DNA of 64,000 nt from assembly GCF_004001245.1 (NCBI RefSeq), contig NZ_AP018724.1, positions 2,720,501-2,784,500 of the forward strand. The letters run 5' to 3'. Position numbers and translations under genes: made by a program. Of this stretch, positions 16,405 through 39,702 are shown piece by piece (the first letter of the stretch is position 1; every line of letters begins with the position of its first letter). The notes below the pieces were generated by a model. It did no database searches. It saw only the letters and a program-made list of their open reading frames with translations, and was not told the origin of the DNA. This DNA is from Sulfurivermis fontis. GTDB taxonomy: Bacteria > Pseudomonadota > Gammaproteobacteria > Thiohalomonadales > Thiohalomonadaceae.

Positions 16405-16644
16405 ATGCCGACAACACTTACCAGCAAGGGCCAGGTGACGATCCCCAAGCAGATTCGCGACGCCCTGAATCTGGAGCCGGGGTCCAGGGTCGATTTCACC
16501 GTCAACCGCGATGGCGAGGTGGTAATACACAAGGTCGATGCCCGTCCGAGTCGCAAACACGACCGCTTCGAGGCAGCCCGCGGCAAGGCCGATGTGAAAT
16601 GGCGCACCGACGAGCTGATGGCACTGCTGCGCGGTGAGGAGTAA
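16405..16644 (+). CDS. vapB: AbrB/MazE-type antitoxin (VapB)
   Basis: A 79-residue antitoxin. Its N-terminal swapped-hairpin DNA-binding domain is recognised by TSKGQVTIPKQIRDAL and LEPGSRVDF (residues 5-32). The C-terminal tail (WRTDELMALLRGEE) is the part expected to bind and block the toxin. GAGGAGG lies eight bases before the ATG. Its stop overlaps the toxin start by one base (TAATG). It probably represses its own operon through the palindrome at 16362-16390. Confidence 0.88.
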   Translation: MPTTLTSKGQVTIPKQIRDALNLEPGSRVDFTVNRDGEVVIHKVDARPSRKHDRFEAARGKADVKWRTDELMALLRGEE

Positions 16645-17054
16645 TGCTACTCGTCGATACCAACGTCCTGGTTGATGTTCTGGAGGACGAGCCGGGCTGG
16701 GCCGACTGGTCCATCAACCAGTTACGGGCGCAATCCAAGGTTCATCGCCTGGCCATCAATCCGATCATTTATGCCGAATTGTCGCTAACCTTCTCCACCG
16801 TCGAGGCCCTCGACCAGGCCATCAACGATCTCAGACTCACGATGATCGAGTTGCCGCACCCAGCACTGTTCCTGGCCGGCAAGGCATTCGTGCGCTACCG
16901 CCGACAGGGTGGCACGAAGGGTAACGTGCTGGCGGACTTTTTCATCGGTGCCCACGCCGCCGTCAGCGACTATCCATTGCTGACGCGCGACACAGGACGC
17001 TATGCATCCTACTTTCCGAGCGTGCGATTGATCACGCCGACGGATGACGACTAA
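16644..17054 (+). CDS. vapC: PIN-domain ribonuclease toxin (VapC)
   Basis: A 136-residue PIN-domain protein. The four acidic residues of the Mg-dependent nuclease site are visible: D5 (LLVDTNVLVD), E45 (IIYAELSL), D98 (VLADFFIGAHA) and D116 (LLTRDTGRY). VapC toxins cleave tRNA or rRNA when their antitoxin is degraded. Start overlap with vapB (TAATG) indicates coupled translation, as usual for such pairs. All key residues are present, so it appears functional. It is the first gene of the island that separates soeABC from sat. Confidence 0.9.
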   Translation: MLLVDTNVLVDVLEDEPGWADWSINQLRAQSKVHRLAINPIIYAELSLTFSTVEALDQAINDLRLTMIELPHPALFLAGKAFVRYRRQGGTKGNVLADFFIGAHAAVSDYPLLTRDTGRYASYFPSVRLITPTDDD

Positions 17055-19686: not shown

Positions 19687-20995
19687 GGGTCATCACCTGA
19701 TCGAGTGGGTTGAATCACCGATTTCTCATCTGAGCGGGGTGTAGGTCAAGGCCGCCGAGATGGAAGTAGATGGCAGTACGGAAACGCTCCCGATTGCGGA
19801 ACCCCCGCGCCCGGTTCTTCATGTGCTGGATGCGGCTGTTGATGCTTTCGGCATGGCCATTGTGTACCTTCAACACCACGGCATTGATGATGCCCCACAG
19901 GTGCTTCTTGATCGTTGCGGCGGTTTTCTTCACCGGCTCCAGTCGGCTGCGTACAGCCCAAGACAGCCAGCGCATCCAGCCCTTGGCCGCCCAGGTGCGG
20001 CTGTCGTAGTGCCACAGGCCCATGGCGAATTCCTTGATGGCCCAGGCCCGCGCCGTTTTCAGGCTGCCATCGCGCAGTGCACGAAAGCGGTTCTGCTGCG
20101 CACGCGTCATGTTGGCCGGGTTGGTGAGCCAGTCATATTTGCTGCCCTTGAGGCAGTCCTCGCCCACGGCCAACAGGGAGCGATGCTCCTGTCGCCGTAC
20201 CTTGTCCACCGCATCATTCAGGTACTTGGCGACATGAAACTTGTCGAAGGCGATTTTCTCCCGCGCCTGTGGGATGTGCGCCTCCGTGGCGCTGATATAG
20301 GCCGGCCACATGTCCATCGCCACCGCCTTGATGTTGGCCTTCTGCTCATCACTCAGCCCGGCATAGTAGGCCGACAGGCTCTCCGTCTTGCGGTCGTCCG
20401 CCACGTGCAGCACGACGCCACGTTCCTGGTCAGTCACCACGGTCACGTACTCGTGGCGCCGGGCGAAGGCGGTCTCGTCCACGCTCAAGTATTCCGGCGC
20501 TTGGCTCTCACGGCGGGACAGCCCGCGCTTCACCGCGCGCTGCATCACTCTGTCGATGGCGCCCCAACTCAGCTTCAATTGTCGCGCCACCGCCTGCGTG
20601 CTCGCCTCCTTCAGCCAGTCAATGAGCAGCGCCTCGAACAGCGCCGTGAAACCCGAACCCGGTTCTGCCCACGGGACCGCCACCGTGACCACCCCGTGCT
20701 CTGCACATTGCACCCGCGGCACGTCCGCTTCCAGCACCGTCTTGTACTGGCAGGTGTCCAGATGGCGCCATTGCCGACGCCTGTTGTCGTAGCCGGGGCT
20801 GGGGCGTCCACAGTGCGGACAGCTCCACGTCACTCCCGGCTCCGGGACCACGTGAATCCGAACCTCCTCGGCATCACGCAGCAACTGCACATCGGCCACC
20901 TTCCACGGCGACCGTAAGCCAAGAATCTGGGCGTATAGGTCTATGTCTCTCATGACTCAACAGGGTAAGCTACCCACTCGATACGGGGAAGAGCC
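19687..20995 (-). mobile_element. ISL3-family insertion sequence, copy 2
   Basis: The same 1309-bp element as at 5062-6370, with the same ends, here bounded by a perfect 8-bp duplication AGAAATCA (19679-19686 and 20996-21003). The left duplication begins inside the CTAG of the IS5 element, so ISL3 arrived after IS5. At the other side it entered the 3' end of the minus-strand gene at 20970-21344 and changed its C-terminus. Confidence 0.95.
19715..20953 (-). CDS. ISL3 family transposase (copy 2)
   Basis: A 412-residue intact transposase, the same as the copy at 5090-6328 except for about three residues (N in the zinc-finger region, M in WMRWLSW and H in the C-terminal DLHPAQ). Zinc finger, helix-turn-helix and DDE residues are all present. 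The high similarity of the two copies, and the perfect target duplications at both sites, indicate recent transposition within this genome. Confidence 0.95.
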   Translation of the reverse strand: MRDIDLYAQILGLRSPWKVADVQLLRDAEEVRIHVVPEPGVTWSCPHCGRPSPGYDNRRRQWRHLDTCQYKTVLEADVPRVQCAEHGVVTVAVPWAEPGSGFTALFEALLIDWLKEASTQAVARQLKLSWGAIDRVMQRAVKRGLSRRESQAPEYLSVDETAFARRHEYVTVVTDQERGVVLHVADDRKTESLSAYYAGLSDEQKANIKAVAMDMWPAYISATEAHIPQAREKIAFDKFHVAKYLNDAVDKVRRQEHRSLLAVGEDCLKGSKYDWLTNPANMTRAQQNRFRALRDGSLKTARAWAIKEFAMGLWHYDSRTWAAKGWMRWLSWAVRSRLEPVKKTAATIKKHLWGIINAVVLKVHNGHAESINSRIQHMKNRARGFRNRERFRTAIYFHLGGLDLHPAQMRNR

Positions 20996-21860: not shown

Positions 21861-22247
21861 TCAGCGCGGCGCGCTGTGTTCCCGCAGCCAGAGCGCGAGT
21901 GCGGCTTCATCCATGTCGCCTGCGGCGAGCGCCAGCGTGGTCAGCACGCATGCCGCATCGCCGGCGGTGAGTTGCATGCCGTTCAGCGCCATGAACAGTT
22001 CCATGCAGACAAAGGCCGTGCGCTTGTTGCCGTCGATGAAGGGATGGTTGCGGGCGATGCCGAAGGCGTAGGCAGCGGCGCAGTCGGCTGCGTCGGGTTC
22101 GCCATAGGCGGCAAGATTTTTCGGGCGGTCGAGGGCGGAGGCGAGCAGCCCGGCATCGCGAATACCTGCCGGGCCACCGTGTTCTGCAAGCTGGCTTTCG
22201 TGGACGGCCTGGACAACCGCCTCATCGAGCCAGACGAAGGCGGTCAC
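21861..22247 (-). CDS. doc: Fic/Doc family toxin (Doc)
   Basis: A 128-residue Doc-type protein with the Fic motif NHPFIDGNKRTAF (H68, then DGNKR at 72-76). Doc toxins phosphorylate elongation factor EF-Tu and stop translation. N-terminal LDEAVVQAVHESQLAEHGG and GLLASALDRPKN are further family marks. The start is GTG at 22247, which overlaps the antitoxin stop (GTGA), so the two are coupled. The partner is an AbrB-type protein instead of the usual Phd. The motif is complete, so it should be active. Confidence 0.9.
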   Translation of the reverse strand: MTAFVWLDEAVVQAVHESQLAEHGGPAGIRDAGLLASALDRPKNLAAYGEPDAADCAAAYAFGIARNHPFIDGNKRTAFVCMELFMALNGMQLTAGDAACVLTTLALAAGDMDEAALALWLREHSAPR

Positions 22248-22471
22248 TTGGCCAGTTCCCGCAGCACGTTGCGGCGGCGCTTCATGATTTCCTCGGCCAG
22301 GGTCATCTGCTTTTCGAAGTCCGGGTCGAACTCGGTGATGCGATAGCCGTCCGGCGACTCGGTCAGGAATACGGTGTCGCCCTTCTCCAGCTTCATGCGC
22401 ACAAGCGCCTCCTTGGGCAGGATCACACCGACGGAGTTGCCGATCTGGGTAAGTTTCAGCGTGAAGTGCAT
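22244..22471 (-). CDS. AbrB/MazE-type antitoxin of Doc
   Basis: A 75-residue protein with a swapped-hairpin AbrB domain (KLTQIGNSVGVILPKEAL and MKLEKGDTVFLTESPDGY). A charged helix at the C-terminus (MTLAEEIMKRRRNVLRELAK) probably covers the toxin. It precedes doc with a 4-base overlap. A palindrome lies just upstream of its start (22490-22511) and may be its own operator. Pairing of an AbrB-fold antitoxin with Doc is less common than Phd-Doc. Confidence 0.85.
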   Translation of the reverse strand: MHFTLKLTQIGNSVGVILPKEALVRMKLEKGDTVFLTESPDGYRITEFDPDFEKQMTLAEEIMKRRRNVLRELAK

Positions 22472-22489
22472 GGCGTGCCCCCGGCATCA

Positions 22490-22616: not shown

Positions 22617-23396
22617 CTATTTCTTGTCCAGCGCCCCGTACAGCGCGGTGAGCTGGTCGGCGTCGTCGAGCATGCGCTCGGAGGTGGTGGAGATGAGGAA
22701 GGACAGGTTGCCGGCCTTGTCGGAGCGGGCCTTGAGCAGCAGCTGGTAGGCGCGATCCAGGTTGTTGAGCAGGGCGACCATCTCCTTGTTGTTGCCGCCG
22801 AAGGCGCGCAGCTCTTTCAGGCCCGCCGCGTATTCCTTGGCCGCGGTGTCGGCCATGGCCTCTTCGTCGGGACCACCAACGCCCCACAGTCTGAGCAGAT
22901 AGAACATGGCCATACGCTGCGACAGCATGCGCTGGCGGCCGGCGACGTTGACCAGTCGGCCGGTGGCCGAGGAGGCGTCCTGTTCCATCTGCACCACGAC
23001 CTCATGGGTCAACGGCAGCAGCTGGTGCGCGATCGCCAGCATCTTTTGTGCATTGTCTTTCGAGGGGGTCGTGAGGGCCAGTTCACGGTAGGGCGCCCAG
23101 GCCGTGCGCACCCGCGCCAGTCCGGCCTTGACCGCCTCGCCCACCGGCAGGGTTTCCAGTTGCAGCAGATTGGCCTCGAACAGATTGACCGCCTGCTGCA
23201 ACTGCTCGTGGGAGGCGCCGGTGTCCTCCCCCAGGCCGAGTTCGCAATAGCTCTTGAGGATGCGCTGCGACAGCATGCGTTGCATGCCGGCCTTGTCGAT
23301 GGCGTCGTTCTCGGTCATGCGCCCCTGCCAGGCGGCAGTGGCCAGCGAGGAATACAATACAGCGAAGAGCACCCCTGCCCATTTGGTCTGTTTCAT
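22617..23396 (-). CDS. Periplasmic protein with type IV pili MCP-like (PilJ-N) domains
   Basis: A 259-residue protein with a signal peptide (TKWAGVLFAVLYSSLATAA). Two copies of the PilJ-N type helix occur, AGMQRMLSQRILKSY near residue 37 and AGRQRMLSQRMAMFY near 151. The domain is the ligand-binding part of PilJ and of NarX-like sensors, but here no membrane helix or signalling domain follows, so it is probably a soluble periplasmic binding or sensor protein. It lies divergent from sat across about 350 bases. Its ligand is unknown; nitrate or nitrite is a guess from the related sensors. Confidence 0.8.
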   Translation of the reverse strand: MKQTKWAGVLFAVLYSSLATAAWQGRMTENDAIDKAGMQRMLSQRILKSYCELGLGEDTGASHEQLQQAVNLFEANLLQLETLPVGEAVKAGLARVRTAWAPYRELALTTPSKDNAQKMLAIAHQLLPLTHEVVVQMEQDASSATGRLVNVAGRQRMLSQRMAMFYLLRLWGVGGPDEEAMADTAAKEYAAGLKELRAFGGNNKEMVALLNNLDRAYQLLLKARSDKAGNLSFLISTTSERMLDDADQLTALYGALDKK

Positions 23397-23744
23397 GATC
23401 AGTCCTTGTTTCTGTTTGTTATGTCCACCCGCCCGCCGGCAGGACTACTCCCTCCGGCGAAGACGGCTATCACTTTCGGATTGAATCCGAGCGCGGCACT
23501 CTGATCCTTGTCCTATATCAAGGATCCGGGCGCCGCAGGCGGCCGTTTCACCTATTAATACCCCCATTACTGCAACCTATTTTTCCCCTTTCCGGCGCTG
23601 GTGTATGGTGTTCGCCTTGCCACCGGCGCGCCGGGCGGACGACCGCCGCGCGCCTTGATATAACGCAAAAATCACAGCGGTGGCGCCGATTTACAACACT
23701 TAACCGCCCAGGCGGGAGCAAAACTCAAACAAGAGGTGACACCG
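23397..23744. promoter_or_regulatory. Divergent PilJ-N/sat intergenic region
   Basis: About 350 bases without a gene. It must hold the promoters of the PilJ-N gene and sat. A possible -10 element TATAAC lies near 23659, but no convincing -35 accompanies it. GC-rich hairpins near 23525-23545 and 23620-23655 are visible. AAGAGGTG at 23731-23738 is the sat ribosome site. Confidence 0.45.
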
Positions 23745-24941
23745 ATGATCAAACCTGTTGGTTCCGATGAACTGAAACCGCTCTTTGTCTACGACCCGTC
23801 CAAGCACGACGCCCTCAAGCACGAGGCGGAGGCCCTGCCCTCGATGCTGCTGACCTCCCAGGCGGCAGCCAATGCGGTGATGATGGGTTCCGGTTACTTC
23901 AGCCCGCTGCCGGGCTACATGAACGTGGCCGACGCCATGGGCGCTGCCGAGAAGATGACCCTGACCAACGGCAAGTTCTTCCCGGTGCCGGTAATGAACC
24001 TGACCACCAAGGATCAGGTCGACGGCCTCAAGGGCGCCAAGCGCATCGCCCTGCGCGACCCCAACGTCGAGGGCAACCCGGTGCTGGCCGTGATGGACGT
24101 GGAGAAGATCGAAGAGGTCACCGACGCCCAGATGGAAACGATGACCAAAAAGGTCTACCGCACCACCGACCCCGAACACCCCGGCGTTGCCGCCTTCAAC
24201 AGCCAGGGCCGTTACGCCCTCTCCGGCCCGATCCAGGTGTTGAACTTTTCCTACTTCTCCGAGGACTTCCCCGACACCTTCCGCACGGCGGTGGAAATCC
24301 GCAACGAAATCCAGGAGCGCGGCTGGAAGAAGGTCGTCGCCTTCCAGACCCGCAACCCCATGCACCGCGCCCACGAGGAGCTGTGCCACATGGCCATGGA
24401 GCGCCTCGGCGCCGACGGCCTGGTCATCCACATGCTGCTCGGCAAGCTGAAGAAGGGTGATATACCGGCCCCTGTGCGCGACAACTGCATCCGCAAGATG
24501 GTCGAGCTCTACTTCAAGCCGAACAGCGCCATGGTCACCGGCTACGGCTTCGACATGCTCTATGCCGGCCCGCGCGAGGCCGTGCTGCACGCCTATTTCC
24601 GCCAGAACATGGGCGCCACCCACTTCATCATCGGCCGCGATCATGCCGGCGTGGGCGACTACTACGGCCCGTTCGATGCCCAGAAGATCTTCGAGGAAGA
24701 GGTGCCGAAGGGTGCGCTGCAAATCGAGATGTTCATGGCCGACAACACCGCCTGGTCGAAGAAGCTGAACAAGGTCGTGATGATGCGCGAGGCCCCGGAC
24801 CACACCAAGGACGACTTCATCACCCTCTCCGGGACCAAGGTGCGCGAGATGCTCGGCCGCGGCGAGGCGCCGCCGCCGGAGTTCTCCCGTCCGGAAGTGG
24901 CCAAGATCCTGATGGACTACTACCAGAGCCTGGACAAGTAA
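23745..24941 (+). CDS. sat: Dissimilatory ATP sulfurylase Sat
   Basis: A 398-residue homo-oligomeric ATP sulfurylase. Active-site motifs are QTRNPMHRAHE (Q201-H210) and IIGRDHAGVGDYYG (from about 295). In a sulfur oxidizer it turns APS and pyrophosphate into ATP and sulfate, the last step after AprBA. The ATG at 23745 is chosen because AAGAGGTG lies six bases upstream; the GTG at 23736 is part of that ribosome site. It is followed by a strong terminator. It is 13 kb from aprBA because a toxin-antitoxin and IS island lies between. Confidence 0.96.
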   Translation: MIKPVGSDELKPLFVYDPSKHDALKHEAEALPSMLLTSQAAANAVMMGSGYFSPLPGYMNVADAMGAAEKMTLTNGKFFPVPVMNLTTKDQVDGLKGAKRIALRDPNVEGNPVLAVMDVEKIEEVTDAQMETMTKKVYRTTDPEHPGVAAFNSQGRYALSGPIQVLNFSYFSEDFPDTFRTAVEIRNEIQERGWKKVVAFQTRNPMHRAHEELCHMAMERLGADGLVIHMLLGKLKKGDIPAPVRDNCIRKMVELYFKPNSAMVTGYGFDMLYAGPREAVLHAYFRQNMGATHFIIGRDHAGVGDYYGPFDAQKIFEEEVPKGALQIEMFMADNTAWSKKLNKVVMMREAPDHTKDDFITLSGTKVREMLGRGEAPPPEFSRPEVAKILMDYYQSLDK

Positions 24942-24961
24942 GCCGTCGCATTGAGGCCAGA

Positions 24962-24990
24962 CAAAAGGGGCGCTGCTGGCGCCCCTTTTG
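24962..24990. terminator. Bidirectional terminator between sat and the bacteriohemerythrin gene
   Basis: CAAAAGGGGCGC, loop TGCTG, GCGCCCCTTTTG: a perfect 12-bp stem with A-rich and T-rich flanks, so it can act on both convergent genes. It lies 20 bases after the sat stop. Confidence 0.9.
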
Positions 24991-25008
24991 CTTTGTCGCT
25001 GTCGTGCC

Positions 25009-25455
25009 TCAACCAAACAGCTTTTTCATGAGCCCCTTCACCCAGGTCTCGCCGCCTTCCTGCGCGATCACCTGTTGCACCGTCGCGGCGTAACGTTTGT
25101 CTTCCTGCTTGATGTGGTTGGCCACCCAACTGGTCAACATGGCCAGCAATTCTTCCGTGACATCATCGCCCTTGGCGTAGCGGCCGCGAAAATCCGCCAG
25201 CTTCTTCACGAAGATCTCGTGCACCCGTTCGTGGGCGCTGCGAAACTCGTAGTTGGCCTCCTCCATGAGCTTCTCCTCGAACAGGAAATTGTTCACTGCG
25301 AAATCCAGCAGTTGCTCCAGAACCCAGCCGGTCTGCTCACGGTCCCCCGTCTGCTGCGCCGCACTCAGGGTGTTGATGAAATCGCCGAGGCGGCGGTTCT
25401 GCACATCGATCTCGGCAATACCCGTGTCGAGCTCTTCCGTCCACTGCATGCGCAT
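25009..25455 (-). CDS. Bacteriohemerythrin with altered diiron site
   Basis: A 148-residue hemerythrin-fold protein with the normal frame MQWTEELDTGIAEIDVQ at the start and length close to other bacteriohemerythrins. Of the usual ligands, E60, H75, H79, H114 and D119 are present (FLFEEKLM, SAHERVHEIF, NHIKQEDKRY). The histidine after IDVQ is N20, and the one of the HFxxEE motif is N56. In known structures these two histidines hold one of the two irons, so O2 binding is probably changed or lost. Both codons are AAC. It may serve as a mononuclear metal, NO or redox protein; function unproven. Confidence 0.85.
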   Translation of the reverse strand: MRMQWTEELDTGIAEIDVQNRRLGDFINTLSAAQQTGDREQTGWVLEQLLDFAVNNFLFEEKLMEEANYEFRSAHERVHEIFVKKLADFRGRYAKGDDVTEELLAMLTSWVANHIKQEDKRYAATVQQVIAQEGGETWVKGLMKKLFG

Positions 25456-25643
25456 TTTTCTTCTCCCGTGGTAGAGGTGATTGGGCGCTCCTCCTGCCTG
25501 CCACCCTTATAGTTGTGCTGCATTCCCTGCCGCGGTGTCCGCGCCGGAATGTGAACCCCGGCAAGGTCGGACATGAATAACTATGCGCCGAAATGCGCCG
25601 GTTGACCACTCAAGACCGAGCGCATTACGCGGGTACTGCAAAG

Positions 25644-25674
25644 CAAAAAGGGGCGCCACAGGCGCCCCCTTTTG
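25644..25674 (-). terminator. Terminator of the nap operon
   Basis: On the minus strand AAAAGGGGGCGCC, loop TGT, GGCGCCCCTTTTT, then GC. It lies 45 bases beyond the napC stop. Plus-strand reading is also T-rich, but no plus-strand gene ends here. Confidence 0.85.
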
Positions 25675-25718
25675 CCTTGCCTCACGCCCGCCCCTGTCCG
25701 GGCCGGCGCTCCCTTACC

Positions 25719-26348
25719 TCAATGCCGCTTACCGTCGCCCATGGCGGCGGACGGGTCCACCTCGACCATCGCCGGCAGCGAGTGGGCGATGCCCTTGTGA
25801 CAATCGATGCAGGTCTTGCCTTCGTCGAAGCCCTCGATGTGCTGCATGCGGCCGCGACGCCCCTGCTTGGTATAGTCCATGGACTTGAAGTCGTGGCAGT
25901 TGCGGCACTCGCGCGAATCGGTCTTCTTCATCGCATGCCAAACGTTCCGCGCCAGTTGCAGGCGCTTGGCCTCGAACTTCTCCGGGGTGTCGATGCTGCC
26001 GAGCAGCTTGTGCCACACCTCGTTGCTGGCCTGGATCTTGCGCACGATCTTGTGTGTCCACTCCTTCGGCACGTGGCAGTCCGGGCAGGTGGCGCGCACA
26101 CCGGAGCGGTTGTTGTAATGGATGGTGTTCTGGTATTCGCGGTACACGTTCTCTTCCATCTCATGGCAGGAGATGCAGAACTGCTCGGTGTTGGTCGCCT
26201 CCATCGCTGTATTGAAGCCGCCCCAGAGCACGATACCGGCGACGATACCAATTCCCAGCAAGGAGCCCGCGGCGTAGCGGGTGCTGGGGCGCTTCAGCGC
26301 TCCCCACCAGCGCGCCAGGATATTTTTGTCTGCGTTTGCACTGGACAT
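25719..26348 (-). CDS. napC: Tetraheme c-type cytochrome NapC
   Basis: A 209-residue NapC/NirT protein: one N-terminal membrane helix (about 26-45, YAAGSLLGIGIVAGIVLW), then four CxxCH heme sites at 58, 88, 148 and 180. It takes electrons from quinol and passes them to NapB in the periplasm. The ATG at 26348 has AGAGG about six bases upstream; a start at 26369 adds seven residues. It is the last gene of napFDAGHBC, separated from napB by 80 bases. Confidence 0.95.
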   Translation of the reverse strand: MSSANADKNILARWWGALKRPSTRYAAGSLLGIGIVAGIVLWGGFNTAMEATNTEQFCISCHEMEENVYREYQNTIHYNNRSGVRATCPDCHVPKEWTHKIVRKIQASNEVWHKLLGSIDTPEKFEAKRLQLARNVWHAMKKTDSRECRNCHDFKSMDYTKQGRRGRMQHIEGFDEGKTCIDCHKGIAHSLPAMVEVDPSAAMGDGKRH

Positions 26349-26428
26349 GGCTGCCTCTCGCTTCTTCATTCGTGGTCACTGTCGCCGCGCCTCGGCGCGA
26401 CGTACTGCGTCTGCTCGCCGCTACACAA

Positions 26429-26872
26429 TCAGCGGTTGCTGATCGTCGGCAACGGCTGGAAGGTATTCTCCACCAGCGGCGCGGCATCGGCCTGCGGCAC
26501 ATGGCACTGGGTACAGAAGTAGCGCCGGGCCGATACATTGGCCAGGTCGTTGCCTTCGCGATCGGCGAAGTGAGTCTGGCTGATCTTGGTGGCCTTGTTC
26601 TGCTTGTAGTTGGCCCAGCTATGGCAGGTCAGGCACTTGTTGACCTTCTGGTTGATGACATAGCCTTCGACCGTATGTGGAATCAGCGGCGGCTGCTGCA
26701 CATAGTCGCGCGGGATCGGATCACGATCCTGCCAGTGCTTGATCTCCACTGCCTGGGAATCATGGGATATCTCCTGGTCACCGCGTAGCGAAACCACGCC
26801 TGCCGCCCACAGCGGAGCATTGGCTAGCATCGCCAGCAGCATCACTCCACCCAACACCATAGACCTTTTCAT
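26429..26872 (-). CDS. napB: Periplasmic nitrate reductase diheme subunit NapB
   Basis: A 147-residue cytochrome with a signal peptide (MVLGGVMLLAMLANAPLWA) and two heme c sites, CLTCH at 80-84 and CTQCH at 120-124. PPLIPHTVEGYVIN is a conserved NapB stretch providing an axial histidine. It delivers electrons from NapC or NapH to NapA. The start overlaps the napH stop by four bases (ATGA). Confidence 0.95.
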   Translation of the reverse strand: MKRSMVLGGVMLLAMLANAPLWAAGVVSLRGDQEISHDSQAVEIKHWQDRDPIPRDYVQQPPLIPHTVEGYVINQKVNKCLTCHSWANYKQNKATKISQTHFADREGNDLANVSARRYFCTQCHVPQADAAPLVENTFQPLPTISNR

Positions 26873-27765
26873 GGCGCCACCTCCGTCTTATGTAGAAACT
26901 GGTTGTTTGTCGAATTGTTGAAGCGTGTGTCGATCCTGAATACGTCCTTGCTGCACACATCGATGCACCGGCCGCAATTGGTGCAGTTGGGCGACAGGAT
27001 CAGCGGTCCTGCCCCGCTCGCCTCGCCCTTGAGGGCCGGCCGGATCACCTGCGGTTCCGGACAGACCTCGAAGCAATCCATGCAGTCATTACAGCGGGCC
27101 CGTGCCACCGCGCTGATCCGCACCACACTCGCCTTACCGAGCAGGCTGTAAAACGCCCCCACCGGACACAGATGGCCGCACCAACCGCGCCGGCTGACGA
27201 AGGCGTCGAACAGAAACAGCGCCACCAACAGCAGCCAGGCGGAGCCGATACCGAACACCAGGGCGCGATACACGCTGGAAACCGGGTTCACCAACTCCCA
27301 GGCCAGGCTGCCCGTGAGCAGTGCCAGCAACAACGTCAGCGCCAGAATCCAGTAGCGCGTACTGCGCGAGAAATTCGCCGTACTCTTGAAACCCAGGCGG
27401 CGATTCAGCCAGGCCGCCGCATCGGTAATGATGTTCACCGGACACACCCAGGCGCAGTACGCGCGCCCGCCGACCAGCAGATAGAACACCACCACAATCG
27501 CCGCACCGATCCAGGCGACCTGCATCGGCCGTCCCCCGCTCAGCAGCATCTGCAGCAACAGATAGGGATCGGTGAGCGGCAGCCACTCCAACGTCAGGCT
27601 CGATGCCAGCGAGCCCTCGACGATCCAAACGCCAAACCACGGCCCGAGCAGAAACAGACCCAGAATGCCCAACTGGCTGACACGCCGCAGCAACAACCAT
27701 TTGTGTGCTGCCCACCAGCCCTTGCTGACGACGGCGTCGTGTCCCGCATACTGGCCCGCGCGCAT
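26869..27765 (-). CDS. napH: Quinol dehydrogenase membrane component NapH
   Basis: A membrane protein of 298 residues with four hydrophobic helices, the cytoplasmic cysteine motifs CAWVCPVN and CGHLCPVG, and two ferredoxin-like [4Fe-4S] motifs (CNDCMDCFEVC and CTNCGRCIDVC) at the C-terminal end. NapGH form a second route of quinol oxidation for Nap. The ATG at 27765 overlaps the napG stop by one base (TGATG); a GTG one codon earlier is possible. Confidence 0.94.
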   Translation of the reverse strand: MRAGQYAGHDAVVSKGWWAAHKWLLLRRVSQLGILGLFLLGPWFGVWIVEGSLASSLTLEWLPLTDPYLLLQMLLSGGRPMQVAWIGAAIVVVFYLLVGGRAYCAWVCPVNIITDAAAWLNRRLGFKSTANFSRSTRYWILALTLLLALLTGSLAWELVNPVSSVYRALVFGIGSAWLLLVALFLFDAFVSRRGWCGHLCPVGAFYSLLGKASVVRISAVARARCNDCMDCFEVCPEPQVIRPALKGEASGAGPLILSPNCTNCGRCIDVCSKDVFRIDTRFNNSTNNQFLHKTEVAP

Positions 27766-28619
27766 CACAGACCTTCCTGCCCACGCTTGAGCGTCTCAAG
27801 CGGATCGTCGGCATAGGGACTGGCCGGCGCCGCCTCATCGATGATGAGTCCACGCCCTTCGTAGTCGTAGCGCATGCCTTCCGGCAGGTTGTACTGATGC
27901 TCCCGATCCGGCGCCACCAGACTGCCGCCGGCCTGCCGCTTTTCCTCCCAGCCGAGGCGATAGTGCTTGCCGAGCTTGCCGCGCGCCAGATGCAGCGGCA
28001 GCACCTTGATTGCCGCTTCCTCAAGGATGCAGGCCTTCTCGCATTTGCCGCATCCGGTGCAGGCATCCGCATGCACCTCCGGTATGAACAGCGCATGCTT
28101 GCCGGAACGGAGGTTGTGGCGCAGCTCCAGCGTGATCGCCTTGCCGCGCACCGGGCAGATGTTGAAACACACCTCGCAGCGCAGGCCCTGGAAGGCGATA
28201 CAGTTCTCCTGATCCACCACTACCGCGAGTCCCATGCGGGCGTCGTCGATGTTGGTCAGCTCGTGATCCAGCGCCCCCGTCGGACACGCCTTCACACAGG
28301 GGATGTCGGGACACATCTCGCAGGGGATCTCCCGGGCGATGAAGTATGGCGAGCCGTTGGCCACCTGCTCGCCCAATTCCGCCAGCCGCAGCGTGTCGAA
28401 CGGGCAGTCACGCACACACAGTCCGCAGCGGATGCAGGCGCCGAGAAACTTCTCCTCATCCAGCGCACCGGGTGGACGGATGGCCTCGGCCGGCAACGAG
28501 GCGGCGGAGCGCGCGTACAGTCCCACGCCCAACCCGAGCAAGGCGACACCGCAGGCGGTCCGGGTGACTTCACCCAGGAACCGCCGCCGTGATACTGCCT
28601 TGACTTCGCTGCCCGCCAT
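27765..28619 (-). CDS. napG: Ferredoxin-type protein NapG
   Basis: A 284-residue periplasmic iron-sulfur protein exported by the Tat system ([20 protein letters not shown]). Four [4Fe-4S] motifs are visible: [32 protein letters not shown] with an earlier cysteine, and [11 protein letters not shown]. It partners NapH in electron delivery to Nap. It lies 20 bases after napA. Confidence 0.94.
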
Positions 28620-28639
28620 TGCCGCTCACCCGCGCTGCA

Positions 28640-31183
28640 TTACGCCCGCATCACCTTGACCGCGCACTTCTTGAAGTCCGTTTCCTTGGAAATCGGACAG
28701 GTCGCGTCGAGGGTCAGCTTGTTGACCAGACGGCCGGCGTCGAACCAGGGGATGAAGATCAGTCCCTCGGGCGGACGATTACGGCCGCGGGTCTCCACCA
28801 TCAGCGTGATCTCGCCGCGCCGGCTGGCCACCTTGGCCATCATGCCGCGTTTGAGGCCGCGCTTCTCGGCATCCTTCGGATGCATGAACAGGACCGCATC
28901 CGGGAAGGCGCGATACAGTTCCGGCACGCGGCGCGTCATGGAGCCGGAGTGCCAGTGCTCCAGCACACGGCCGGTGGACAGCCACAGGTCGTATTCCTGG
29001 TCCGGCGACTCGGCCGCCGGCTCGTAGGGCAGGGCGATGATGTTGGCCTTGCCGTCCTTGTTGCCGTAGAACTGCCAGCCGGCGCCCGCCGGCACATGCG
29101 GGTCATAGCCTTCCTTGTAGCGCCACAGCGTCTCCTTGCCGTTGATCACCGGCCAGCGCAGGCCACGCACCTGATGGTAGTGATCGAACTCGGCCAGCTC
29201 ATGACCCTTCTTCGGACCTTCCAGGGAGAAGATGCGGTACTCCTCGTACAGGCCCTTCTGCACATAGAAACCGTAGCGTTCCGACTCGTCGTTGTCGTAG
29301 ACGTTGCCCTGGGCATCGGTAATCTTCTGCTTCGGGAACTTGTTCACCGCACCGTTGGCGAACAAGATGTCGAACAGGGTTTTGCCTTTGTACTCCGGCT
29401 TCTTGGCGAGCAGTTCCGCCGGCCACACCTCTTCCACCTTGAAACGCTTGGAGAACTCCATCAGCTGCATCAGATCGGACTGCGCCTCGCCCGGCGCTTT
29501 CACCTGCTGGCGCCAGAACTGGGTACGCCGCTCGGCGTTGCCGTAGGCGCCTTCCTTCTCCACCCACATCGCCGTCGGCAGGATCAGATCGGCCGCCACG
29601 GCAGAGACGGTGGGATAGGGATCGGACACCACGATGAAGTTGTCCGGATTACGCCAGCCCGGGTACAGCTCACCGTTGATGTTGGGACCGGCCTGCATGT
29701 TGTTGTTGCACATCTGCCAGTAGCAGTTGATTTTGCCGTCCTTCAGCAGGCGCGCCATCAACACCGCATGGGCGCCAACCTTGCCGTTGAGCGTACCCTC
29801 CGGCAACTTCCACACCTTCTCGGCGAAGGCGCGGTGATCGGCGTTGGCCACCACCAGGTCGGCGGGGAGGCGATGGGCGAAGGTGCCGACCTCACGCGCA
29901 GTGCCGCAGGCCGAGGGCTGGCCGGTGAGCGAGAACGGTCCGTTGCCCGGCTCGGAGATCTTGCCGGTGAGCAGATGGATGTTATAGACGAGGTTGTTCA
30001 CCCAGGTGCCGCGGGTGTGCTGGTTGAAGCCCATGGTCCAGTAGGACACCACCTTGCGCTTCGGATCGGCATACAATTCGGCCAGCTCGATGAGCTGCTC
30101 CTTCGGCACCTTGGACAGCTGCGCCACCTTGTCCACGGTGTACTCGGCGACGAATTTCTTGTACTCCTCGAAGTCGATGGGGTCCATCTTGCCGGCCGTG
30201 GCGACATTCGCCGCCTTCTGCTCGCGCGGATCATTGGGGCGCAGACCGTAACCGATGTCCGTGGCACCCTTCTTGAAGTTGACGTGCTTGGCGATGAAAT
30301 CCTTGTTCACCTTGCCGTTCTGGATGATGTAATTGGCGATGAAGTTGAGAATCGCCAGGTCGGTCTGCGGCTCGAACACGATGGGCAGGTCGGCCAGCTC
30401 GAAGCTGCGATGTTCGAAGGTGGACAGCACCGCGACCTTGACATGGTTGGCGGTGAGGCGGCGATCGGTGAGACGCGACCACAGGATCGGATGCATCTCC
30501 GCCATGTTGGAACCCCACAGCACGAAGGCATCGGCATGCTCCAGGTCGTCATAGCAGCCCATCGGCTCGTCGGCACCGAAGGTACGGATGAATCCCGCCA
30601 CGGCCGAGGCCATACAGTGCCGTGCATTGGGATCGATGTTGTTGGAACGGAAGCCGGCCTTGTACAGCTTGGCCGCGGCATAGCCTTCCCACACCGTCCA
30701 CTGCCCCGAGCCGAACATGGCGACGCTGGAGGTGAGCTGATCCGCCGGCTTGCCGGCATTGGCCGCCATATCCTTCTTCAGCGACTCCTTCCACTTCTGG
30801 GCCATGATGTCATAGGCCTGGTCCCAGCTGATCTCGGTGAACTCGCCTTCCTTGTCGTACTTGCCGTTTCGCATGCGCAGCAGCGGCTTGGTCAGGCGAT
30901 CCTTGCCGTACATGATCTTGGAAAGGAAATAACCCTTGATGCAGTTGAGACCGCGATTGACCGGCGCATCCGGGTCACCCTGGGTGGCGACGACGCGGCC
31001 ATCCTGGGTACCGACCAGCACGCTGCAGCCGGTGCCGCAGAAACGGCAGGCGGCCTTGTCCCAGCGGATCTTGCTGCTTGTGGACGCCAACGCGGTGTTG
31101 ATACCGGGCACGGTGATTCCGGCAGCGGCAGCCGTAGCGGCGATGGCATTGGTCTTGATGAAATCACGCCTGGTCAGTTTCAT
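28640..31183 (-). CDS. napA: Periplasmic nitrate reductase catalytic subunit NapA
   Basis: An 847-residue molybdenum enzyme that reduces nitrate to nitrite in the periplasm. A Tat signal ([19 protein letters not shown]) is followed by cysteines 46, 49, 53 and 81 for the [4Fe-4S] cluster (CRFCGTGC). C190 in [13 protein letters not shown] is the molybdenum ligand. Length and sequence are typical of NapA. It overlaps napD by four bases (ATGA) and depends on NapD for maturation and on moaA for cofactor synthesis. Confidence 0.97.
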
Positions 31184-31470
31184 TGCGAGGCCTCCTGTTC
31201 GGTAACGTCATTCTCGAATTGGTGATAAATCATCGCGGCAGACAGCACGCCCTCGACGTCGTATAGACGCATTACTGTTTCGCCTGTCATGCGCTCTGCA
31301 CTCTCTTCCACCGTCACCACCATCTTTCCTTCCGGGGTCACGGCGTGAACTTCGACGCCGGGCAGTTGCGTCAGCTGTGCCCGCACCCGCTCGATATGCG
31401 CGGGCGCGGCATGCACCAGCACGCCGGCAACGGAAATGGCGGTTGCATCCTGGCTCAATGCTTCATTCAT
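31180..31470 (-). CDS. napD: Nitrate reductase chaperone NapD
   Basis: A 96-residue chaperone that binds the NapA Tat signal peptide. Family features are [20 protein letters not shown] at the N-terminus and [10 protein letters not shown] in the middle. The ATG at 31470 is chosen because it overlaps the napF stop (ATGA). The stop overlaps the napA start in the same way. Confidence 0.92.
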
Positions 31471-31982
31471 ACGGATACCTCGACGGGATGGGGGCCGTAG
31501 CTCATGACGATGGCGGCAGCCGGACAGGGCGCAACACAGGCACCACAGCCGTTGCACAGCGCGGTGCTGACTTCCGGCGGCGCGACACGGCCGGCGGTGG
31601 GACGGAAACGGATGGCGCGCGCATCGCATTGCTCGCCGCAGCTGCGGCAGATCACGCCATGGTGGGTGAGACAGCCGCTGCCGATGCCGACACGCAACTG
31701 CCAGGGGGCCTCGCCTTCGTAAGCACGCAGGGCGCCACGCGTACAGCTGTCGAGACAGGCGCGGCAGAAGGTGCACTCGCCGCGCTGAAAATCGACCTTG
31801 GGGAAACCGCCACGCCCGGCGCTGAGCAGGCCTTGCGGACAGGCGCTGATGCACTGGCCGCAGCGATCGCAACGCTCGGCGAACAACCATTCTTCCAGCG
31901 CCCAGGGCGGACGCACGGCACGCCGCTCGCCGCGAAAATCGCCGCGCAGAAACTGCGTTCTGCTAATCGCCATATCCATCAT
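31467..31982 (-). CDS. napF: Ferredoxin-type protein NapF
   Basis: A 171-residue cytoplasmic iron-sulfur protein with cysteine motifs CDRCGQCISAC, CTFCRACLDSC, CRSCGEQC and CNGCGACVAPC. NapF helps mature NapA before export. AGGGG lies six bases before the ATG at 31982; internal ATGs follow two and four codons later. It is the first gene of the operon and lies below an FNR site at 32055. Confidence 0.92.
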   Translation of the reverse strand: MMDMAISRTQFLRGDFRGERRAVRPPWALEEWLFAERCDRCGQCISACPQGLLSAGRGGFPKVDFQRGECTFCRACLDSCTRGALRAYEGEAPWQLRVGIGSGCLTHHGVICRSCGEQCDARAIRFRPTAGRVAPPEVSTALCNGCGACVAPCPAAAIVMSYGPHPVEVSV

Positions 31983-39553: not shown

Positions 39554-39565
39554 GTTCGAATCCCA

Positions 39566-39649
39566 GTGGCAAGTGGCAAGTGGCAAGTGGCAAGTGGCAA
39601 GTGGCAAGTGGCAAGTGGCAAGTGGCAAGTGGCAAGTGGCAAGTGGCAA
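39566..39649. repeat. Twelve perfect tandem GTGGCAA heptamers
   Basis: Exactly 84 bases of GTGGCAA repeated twelve times, 13 bases upstream of the rtcB start. An inverted arm with the same rhythm follows (ACTTGCAACTTGTCACTTG near 39673-39695). The array therefore can form a long hairpin between archease and rtcB. Copy number is likely to vary between strains. Confidence 0.9.
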
Positions 39650-39702
39650 GGAAGAGTGTGGGCCTTTTCTTGCTACTTGCAACTTGTCACTTGAAACTTC
39701 AT

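Follow-up and report, generated by a model that had tools for sequence, protein, structure and literature searches.

A single-domain bacteriohemerythrin of Sulfurivermis fontis with asparagine at both histidine positions of one iron site

Results and discussion

The 64,000-nucleotide stretch of the Sulfurivermis fontis genome analysed here (the window; contig NZ_AP018724.1, positions 2,720,501 to 2,784,500) carries a bacteriohemerythrin gene in which both histidine codons assigned to the Fe2 half of the diiron site have become asparagine codons, with the five other ligand positions kept. In our preferred reading, to which we give a probability of about 0.45, this N/N protein is a natural half-site bacteriohemerythrin in which the Fe1 half was kept and the Fe2 ligands were lost stepwise. 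Diiron hemerythrin is a textbook O2 carrier, and its O2-binding iron is the one for which the N/N protein lacks the histidines. To judge from its residues, the N/N protein probably has a role other than oxygen carriage.

The gene, its ligand positions and its predicted fold

The gene runs from ATG to stop on the minus strand with an intact frame and no internal stops; the plus-strand reading of the same interval is a shadow frame. Its product scores above the cut-offs of NF002007 (157.8 bits, cut-off 109), NF033749 (111 bits, cut-off 84) and PF01814 (50.2 bits, cut-off 25.3). The gene and the codons discussed below are located as follows.

25009-25455, minus strand: N/N bacteriohemerythrin gene, 148 aa, single domain (NF002007, NF033749, PF01814)
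25396-25398, minus strand: codon 20, AAC (Asn), first Fe2 histidine position
25384-25386, minus strand: codon 24, Gly, one helical turn from N20, in the N/N pair only
25300-25302, minus strand: codon 52, Phe, one helical turn from N56, in the N/N pair only
25288-25290, minus strand: codon 56, AAT (Asn), second Fe2 histidine position
25276-25278, minus strand: codon 60, Glu kept, bridging carboxylate position
25231-25233, minus strand: codon 75, His kept, Fe1 ligand position
25219-25221, minus strand: codon 79, His kept, Fe1 ligand position
25114-25116, minus strand: codon 114, His kept, Fe1 ligand position
25099-25101, minus strand: codon 119, Asp kept, bridging carboxylate position

Upon alignment to the solved proteins DcrH-Hr and McHr, N20 and N56 fall on the histidine positions of helices A and B, which we take from hemerythrin crystallography to be the ligands of Fe2, the O2-binding iron. 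In the same alignment the remaining five ligands correspond to E60, H75, H79, H114 and D119. A preliminary description of the locus had claimed that asparagine replaces exactly the two Fe2 histidines, and that the three Fe1 histidines and both bridging carboxylates remain; the alignment bears out both claims, with the assignment to Fe2 itself taken from crystallography. Instead of the diiron ligand set of five histidines, one glutamate and one aspartate (HHEHHHD in the order of positions 20, 56, 60, 75, 79, 114 and 119), the protein thus presents NNEHHHD. On fold and sequence we count the protein among the hemerythrins, but because its ligand set is incomplete we do not class it as an O2-binding diiron hemerythrin.

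The AlphaFold2 model of the N/N protein (four sequences) has a mean pLDDT of 87.8 and shows the hemerythrin fold, with no metal in the model. A four-helix bundle is predicted with helices at residues 14-36, 39-66, 72-94 and 100-133, next to a short helix at 137-147. The closest fold to this model is that of DcrH-Hr in its I119E variant (3waq; VIA Z 18.3, rmsd 1.7, 131 aligned residues), accompanied by DcrH-Hr 2avk (Z 17.6, rmsd 1.9, 131 aligned) and McHr 4xpx (VIA Z 17.3, rmsd 1.7, 128 aligned). Myohemerythrin and other hemerythrins scored Z 13.4-14.2, and the next chain 12.2.

Among known systems, the protein most resembles the single-domain PRK00808/NF002007 type represented by McHr, which we take to be from Methylococcus capsulatus: fold, length, conserved start and the EE(x)LM and WxxxHIxxxD blocks are the same, and the C-terminal tail resembles that of a paralogue in its own genome. 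It differs from the McHr type in the two Fe2 histidines changed to asparagine, in V24G and Y52F, and in a valine at the position of McHr Leu114. DcrH-Hr, a Desulfovibrio chemoreceptor domain, is the nearest solved sequence (32-33% identity to the N/N protein), but its diiron ligand set is complete with seven residues and it belongs to a receptor, whereas the N/N protein is a free-standing domain. The RIC/YtfE/ScdA proteins, which the available text describes as hemerythrin-like bundles with NO and nitrite chemistry, are likewise distinct: two diiron ligands are absent from the N/N protein, and a Pfam scan up to E 1 returned Hemerythrin and a sub-threshold UPF0150 match, without the RIC-type extra domain. 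That N-terminal domain is known as ScdA_N.

Iron-ligand patterns across hemerythrins

The frequency of such changes was surveyed in a set of hemerythrin domains that was non-random, as the family of the window genome is over-represented in it and part of that family's listed matches were included. A class search in which 53 of 143 genomes had a match contributed its full list of matches apart from the eight weakest, and a phylum search with matches in 70 of 120 genomes contributed the best 30. Two of the 230 survey loci gave no row. The ligand positions were read in 197 distinct rows, 189 of which have letters at all seven sites. The eight rows dropped for absent letters at one or more sites include two with a changed Fe1 residue.

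HHEHHHD was found in 173 of the 189 fully readable domains. Both Fe2 histidines are absent in four domains of three lineages, namely the N/N pair, one domain with S/Q and one with R/I at positions 20 and 56, and all four of these keep the E, H, H, H and D of the remaining sites. A single Fe2 histidine is absent in five further domains (two N/H, one H/N, one H/D and one E/H), and seven have both Fe2 histidines with another ligand changed. Survey-wide, several different residues stand in for the histidines (N, S, R or E at position 20; N, Q, I or D at position 56). None of the nine Fe2-changed domains is also changed at another ligand, which says little since about 0.3 such cases would be expected under independence.

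The S/Q domain is the second of a tandem protein (L195 3802-4692, plus strand, G102:C19) with a canonical first domain. The R/I protein (L196 4454-4843, minus strand, G016:C62) is short and scores 22.1 bits against Pfam, under the cut-off of 25.3; its gene sits between adk-like and LysR-type genes, named by eye. The H/N pattern occurs in the C-terminal hemerythrin domain of an NrfD-type membrane protein (L197 5466-7193, plus strand, G075:C8), where the sequence apparently records an independent H56N event.

Sister species and maintenance of the gene

A sister species of the same genus (G004) carries a gene 91% identical to that of the window, with the same N/N pair encoded by the same AAC and AAT codons. 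The pair also stands in the independent record JANJXC010000097.1, which by length and sequence was counted as the same contig as G004:C106, and is known in two genomes, both of one genus. As the window genome is a single contig of 100% completeness and the independent record shows the same pair, the pair is not a local assembly error.

Between the two N/N genes dN is 0.048 and dS 0.52 (dN/dS about 0.09, NG86), with 36 of the 52 differences on third codon positions. This ratio is comparable to those of napC and sat and lies below those of napA, napB, napG and napH (0.14-0.25). Moreover, the alignment just 5′ of the start codon is identical between the two species in 149 of its 189 columns. The low dN/dS and the conserved upstream region together indicate that the gene is maintained. 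Pseudogene features were not found, in that the frames of all four members of the clade described below are without internal stops and dN/dS is far from 1.

Order of the histidine losses

Two relatives found in the 20 genomes of the family (G012 and G013; 55% and 53% identity) carry N20 but H56. N20 is consequently common to all four clade members, and N56 to the two that form its inner pair; the five other ligands are intact in all four, at identities down to 53%. The tree was built without columns 20 and 56, from few columns and by a quick method, and comprised 64 of 167 rows (the 60 most query-like and four others with an Fe2 pair other than His/His). In this tree the four N20 rows form one clade (SH-aLRT 99) in which the N/N pair is nested (SH-aLRT 98). 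Given this nesting and the H56 still present in two N20 relatives, the sequences place H20N first and H56N later, as stepwise changes and not as one matched event. Each of the two is a single C-to-A change from a histidine codon, and because this one-base route means that mutation alone favours asparagine, the matching residues by themselves say little.

The preliminary description had read two matched losses as a sign of selection for a mononuclear or different metal site instead of decay. Its view that the gene is maintained stands, while the matching does not, as the losses are sequential and one base each. It had also proposed looking for the same pair in homologues and had named random substitutions at these positions as evidence against its reading. 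The pair recurs in the sister species but not in the two relatives of 53-55% identity, and the substitutions are not random within the orthologous clade but varied across the survey.

Further members of the lineage were sought more widely. A contig scan with the N/N protein returned three loci: the sister-species gene (L007) and two distant relatives that both show HHEHHHD, in a Lachnospiraceae MAG (L008) and in Marasmitruncus massiliensis (L009). Profile A1 found no further N20 member above thresholds among 20 family genomes (E 1e-25), 369 class genomes (1e-28; at most 10 candidates scored per genome) and 5 and 40 genomes of two other orders (1e-34 and 1e-34); for the order of the window genome the profile covered the same 20 genomes as for the family. 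Neither this profile nor the hemerythrin of one family member found a relative among viral contigs, where a query with a paralogue of the window genome found one partial relative (L194), which was set aside. No close match to the N/N gene was found in the congeners G001 (91% complete), G002 (84%) and G003 (100%). The window genome itself encodes six further hemerythrins (E 1e-8), all of them HHEHHHD.

Changes accompanying the lost histidines

We examined the 39 well-conserved columns, defined by an entropy of up to 2.2 bits among the 173 canonical domains, for residues that are rare there (under 5%). On the N/N branch only three of these 39 columns changed to a rare residue: H56N, V24G and Y52F. 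At position 24, glycine occurs in none of the 173 canonical domains and Val, Ile or Leu in 143; at position 52, tyrosine occurs in 130 and phenylalanine in four. Positions 24 and 52 are each a single helical turn away from 20 and 56, respectively, although this pattern was noticed after the fact and unplanned, and the placement in the bundle follows from helix periodicity. It is the company of the changes at 56, 24 and 52, and not the matched asparagines, that does speak for remodelling of the site.

Two other positions differ within the clade or around it. Position 111, which aligns with McHr Leu114, is valine in all four clade members, and McHr Leu114 is a residue mutated by others according to the entry titles of 4xpy, 4xpw and 4xq1. 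Position 26, outside the 39 columns, is phenylalanine in the N/N and tyrosine in the N/H proteins, with phenylalanine in two of the 173 canonical domains.

Neighbourhood and a possible link to nitrate respiration

The N/N gene lies between a periplasmic nitrate reductase operon and a convergent sulfate adenylyltransferase gene.

25719-31982, minus strand: nap periplasmic nitrate reductase operon, directly upstream (napC, B, H, G and A by NCBIfam; napD by Pfam; napF by eye)
25650-25668, no strand assigned: terminator-like inverted repeat with T run, between napC and the N/N gene
25456-25640, minus strand: upstream region, presumed own promoter, conserved in the sister species
23736-24941, plus strand: sat, sulfate adenylyltransferase, convergent neighbour

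The terminator-like repeat was scored on the plus strand, and about one such site arises by chance in shuffles. No sigma-70 promoter was found in 24900-25760, and no FNR/DNR-type box was seen by eye. The sister species G004 has the same layout, with the N/N gene directly downstream of its nap operon. The congener G001 has the same order of moaA (by eye), nap and sat with no hemerythrin between; its napC-sat interval gave no tblastn match to the N/N gene, nor a relic of it, the blastn matches below E 0.05 being repeat-like stretches outside the gene. In G003, nap is present and the N/N gene absent; about 1.6 kb beyond its napC there is another hemerythrin domain, of the canonical type (L200 8413-8775, minus strand, G003:C30, in a 668-aa frame).

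The N/H gene of G013 lies beyond a nos cluster (nosR, Z and D by NCBIfam; F, Y and L by eye), on the opposite strand and tail to tail with a DsrE-like gene. Near that of G012 no nap or nos gene was recognisable by eye, and the nosZ of this genome is on another contig; at the threshold used, NapA was found in neither genome. Cytochrome cd1-family genes of the window genome pass the Pfam cut-off; its NosZ-like gene stays below that of TIGR04244, a range in which matches also occur in six of 14 control genomes.

Membership of the nap operon was rejected as an established fact, in view of the repeat, the conserved upstream region and the G001 and G003 loci without the gene. A dedicated accessory of nitrate or nitrous-oxide respiration, buffering NO or nitrite for Nap or Nos, would be compatible with any reading of the metal site. 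The position next to nap in both N/N genomes, the location of one N/H gene just past nos, the canonical domain past napC in G003 and the cytochrome cd1-family and NosZ-like genes of the window genome all fit such a role. Against it stand the terminator-like repeat and conserved upstream region that separate the gene from nap, the nap loci of G001 and G003 that lack it, and the N/H relatives without NapA, one of them also without recognisable nap or nos neighbours. We therefore regard a denitrification role as suggested by place only, and a dedicated accessory function as unlikely.

What the remaining half-site may do

The half-site reading would run as follows. In one small lineage of PRK00808-type hemerythrins, H20N would have come first, common to the four clade members like the valine at the McHr Leu114 position, and H56N would have followed together with V24G and Y52F, the Fe1 half-site of H75, H79, H114, E60 and D119 being kept throughout. 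One iron, or another divalent metal, would then be bound by three histidines together with one or two carboxylates, and its free coordination position would point into the space left by Fe2, where Gly24 would contribute to a cavity. Reversible two-electron O2 carriage would be lost, and the protein might instead bind or react with a different small molecule, for example NO, nitrite or peroxide, alongside the six ordinary hemerythrins of the same cell. We favour a mononuclear Fe1-type site, which is compatible with the data yet unproven. More tentatively, and on balance doubtfully, a dioxygen carrier may have been converted through the extant N/H state into a one-iron NO, nitrite or peroxide protein of a nitrate-respiring host, as one of at least three origins (N/N, S/Q and R/I) of an Fe2-less, Fe1-intact state.

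The Fe2 position may also not be vacant, as asparagine is able to ligate metals. N20 and N56 could bind a second metal through their side-chain oxygens, so that the site would still be dinuclear, albeit weak, labile or heterometallic, as in an iron-donating or Mn/Zn-Fe protein. The retention of E60 and D119, the two bridging carboxylates, agrees with such a site. Yet the S/Q and R/I lineages keep EHHHD as well, although arginine and isoleucine are poor metal ligands, so the carboxylates do not by themselves imply a second metal. Going by helix periodicity, V24G would moreover open the Fe2 side and not pack it. There is a parallel in YtfE, one iron of which is described as more labile and the E159L variant of which, with one histidine ligand displaced, has a mononuclear iron centre (PMC9268430, in the text available). 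Weighing these points, we hold a surviving dinuclear site to be a credible but unlikely alternative to the half-site.

The five kept residues could also be structural, the protein being a metal-free pseudo-hemerythrin retained for its fold, for example as partner of a canonical paralogue or as a regulatory protein. Such proteins have precedents, at least as the available text describes them: the H2 hemerythrin-like domain of the plant iron sensor BTSL2 is without a diiron centre (PMC12022348), and Trichomonas RIC2 is tabulated with 0 Fe (PMC9268430). BTSL2 is a eukaryotic multidomain protein, unlike the single-domain N/N protein, and the likeness is one of description and not site by site. The G102 tandem protein, with its canonical domain followed by the S/Q domain, would suit a pairing of this kind, yet the five other ligands are invariant in the four clade sequences and in two further lineages, and we consider a metal-free protein rather improbable. 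That a redundant gene is decaying towards loss under relaxed selection, with both substitutions neutral, is disfavoured and very improbable: the six other hemerythrins of the genome and the missing gene in G001, G002 and G003, including the G001 napC-sat interval, would agree with it, but the excess of dS over dN, the bias of differences towards third positions, the four intact frames and the conserved upstream region all argue against it.

Variation at iron-coordinating residues was reported in 2016 for 106 single-domain hemerythrins, with loss of function, neofunctionalisation and other iron binding named as possibilities (PLoS One, PMC4919030); its available text mentions neither an N/N pair nor an order of events, nor does it apply a selection test. 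In searches of the open-licence PMC literature we found no description of a natural mononuclear or Asn-ligated hemerythrin, of the N/N lineage or of its N/H relatives. The lineage would constitute a natural experiment on what half of a diiron site can do, for which N/H intermediates and canonical paralogues of the same genome are available for comparison. If the Fe2-less, Fe1-intact state did arise at least three times, half-site hemerythrins would be a recurrent and overlooked class. The gene is also a warning for annotation, since its product passes the cut-off of an NCBIfam 'equivalog' bacteriohemerythrin model, yet the usual O2 carriage is not expected of it.

Other features of the window

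Next to sat, 22617-23396 (minus strand) encodes a stand-alone protein with matches to the PilJ N-terminal domain; in the sister genome this protein is present as two tandem copies. A Fic/Doc-family gene at 21861-22487 (minus strand) overlaps a small gene at 22244-22471 with a weak MazE antitoxin match (22.2 bits, cut-off 24.7), and judged by these matches the two are possibly a toxin-antitoxin pair. A VapC-like PIN-domain protein is encoded at 16644-17054 (plus strand) and an ISL3-family transposase at 19715-20953 (minus strand). Finally, the 7-bp unit AGTGGCA is repeated in 12.3 perfect copies at 39565-39650; perfect heptamer arrays can be phase-variable.
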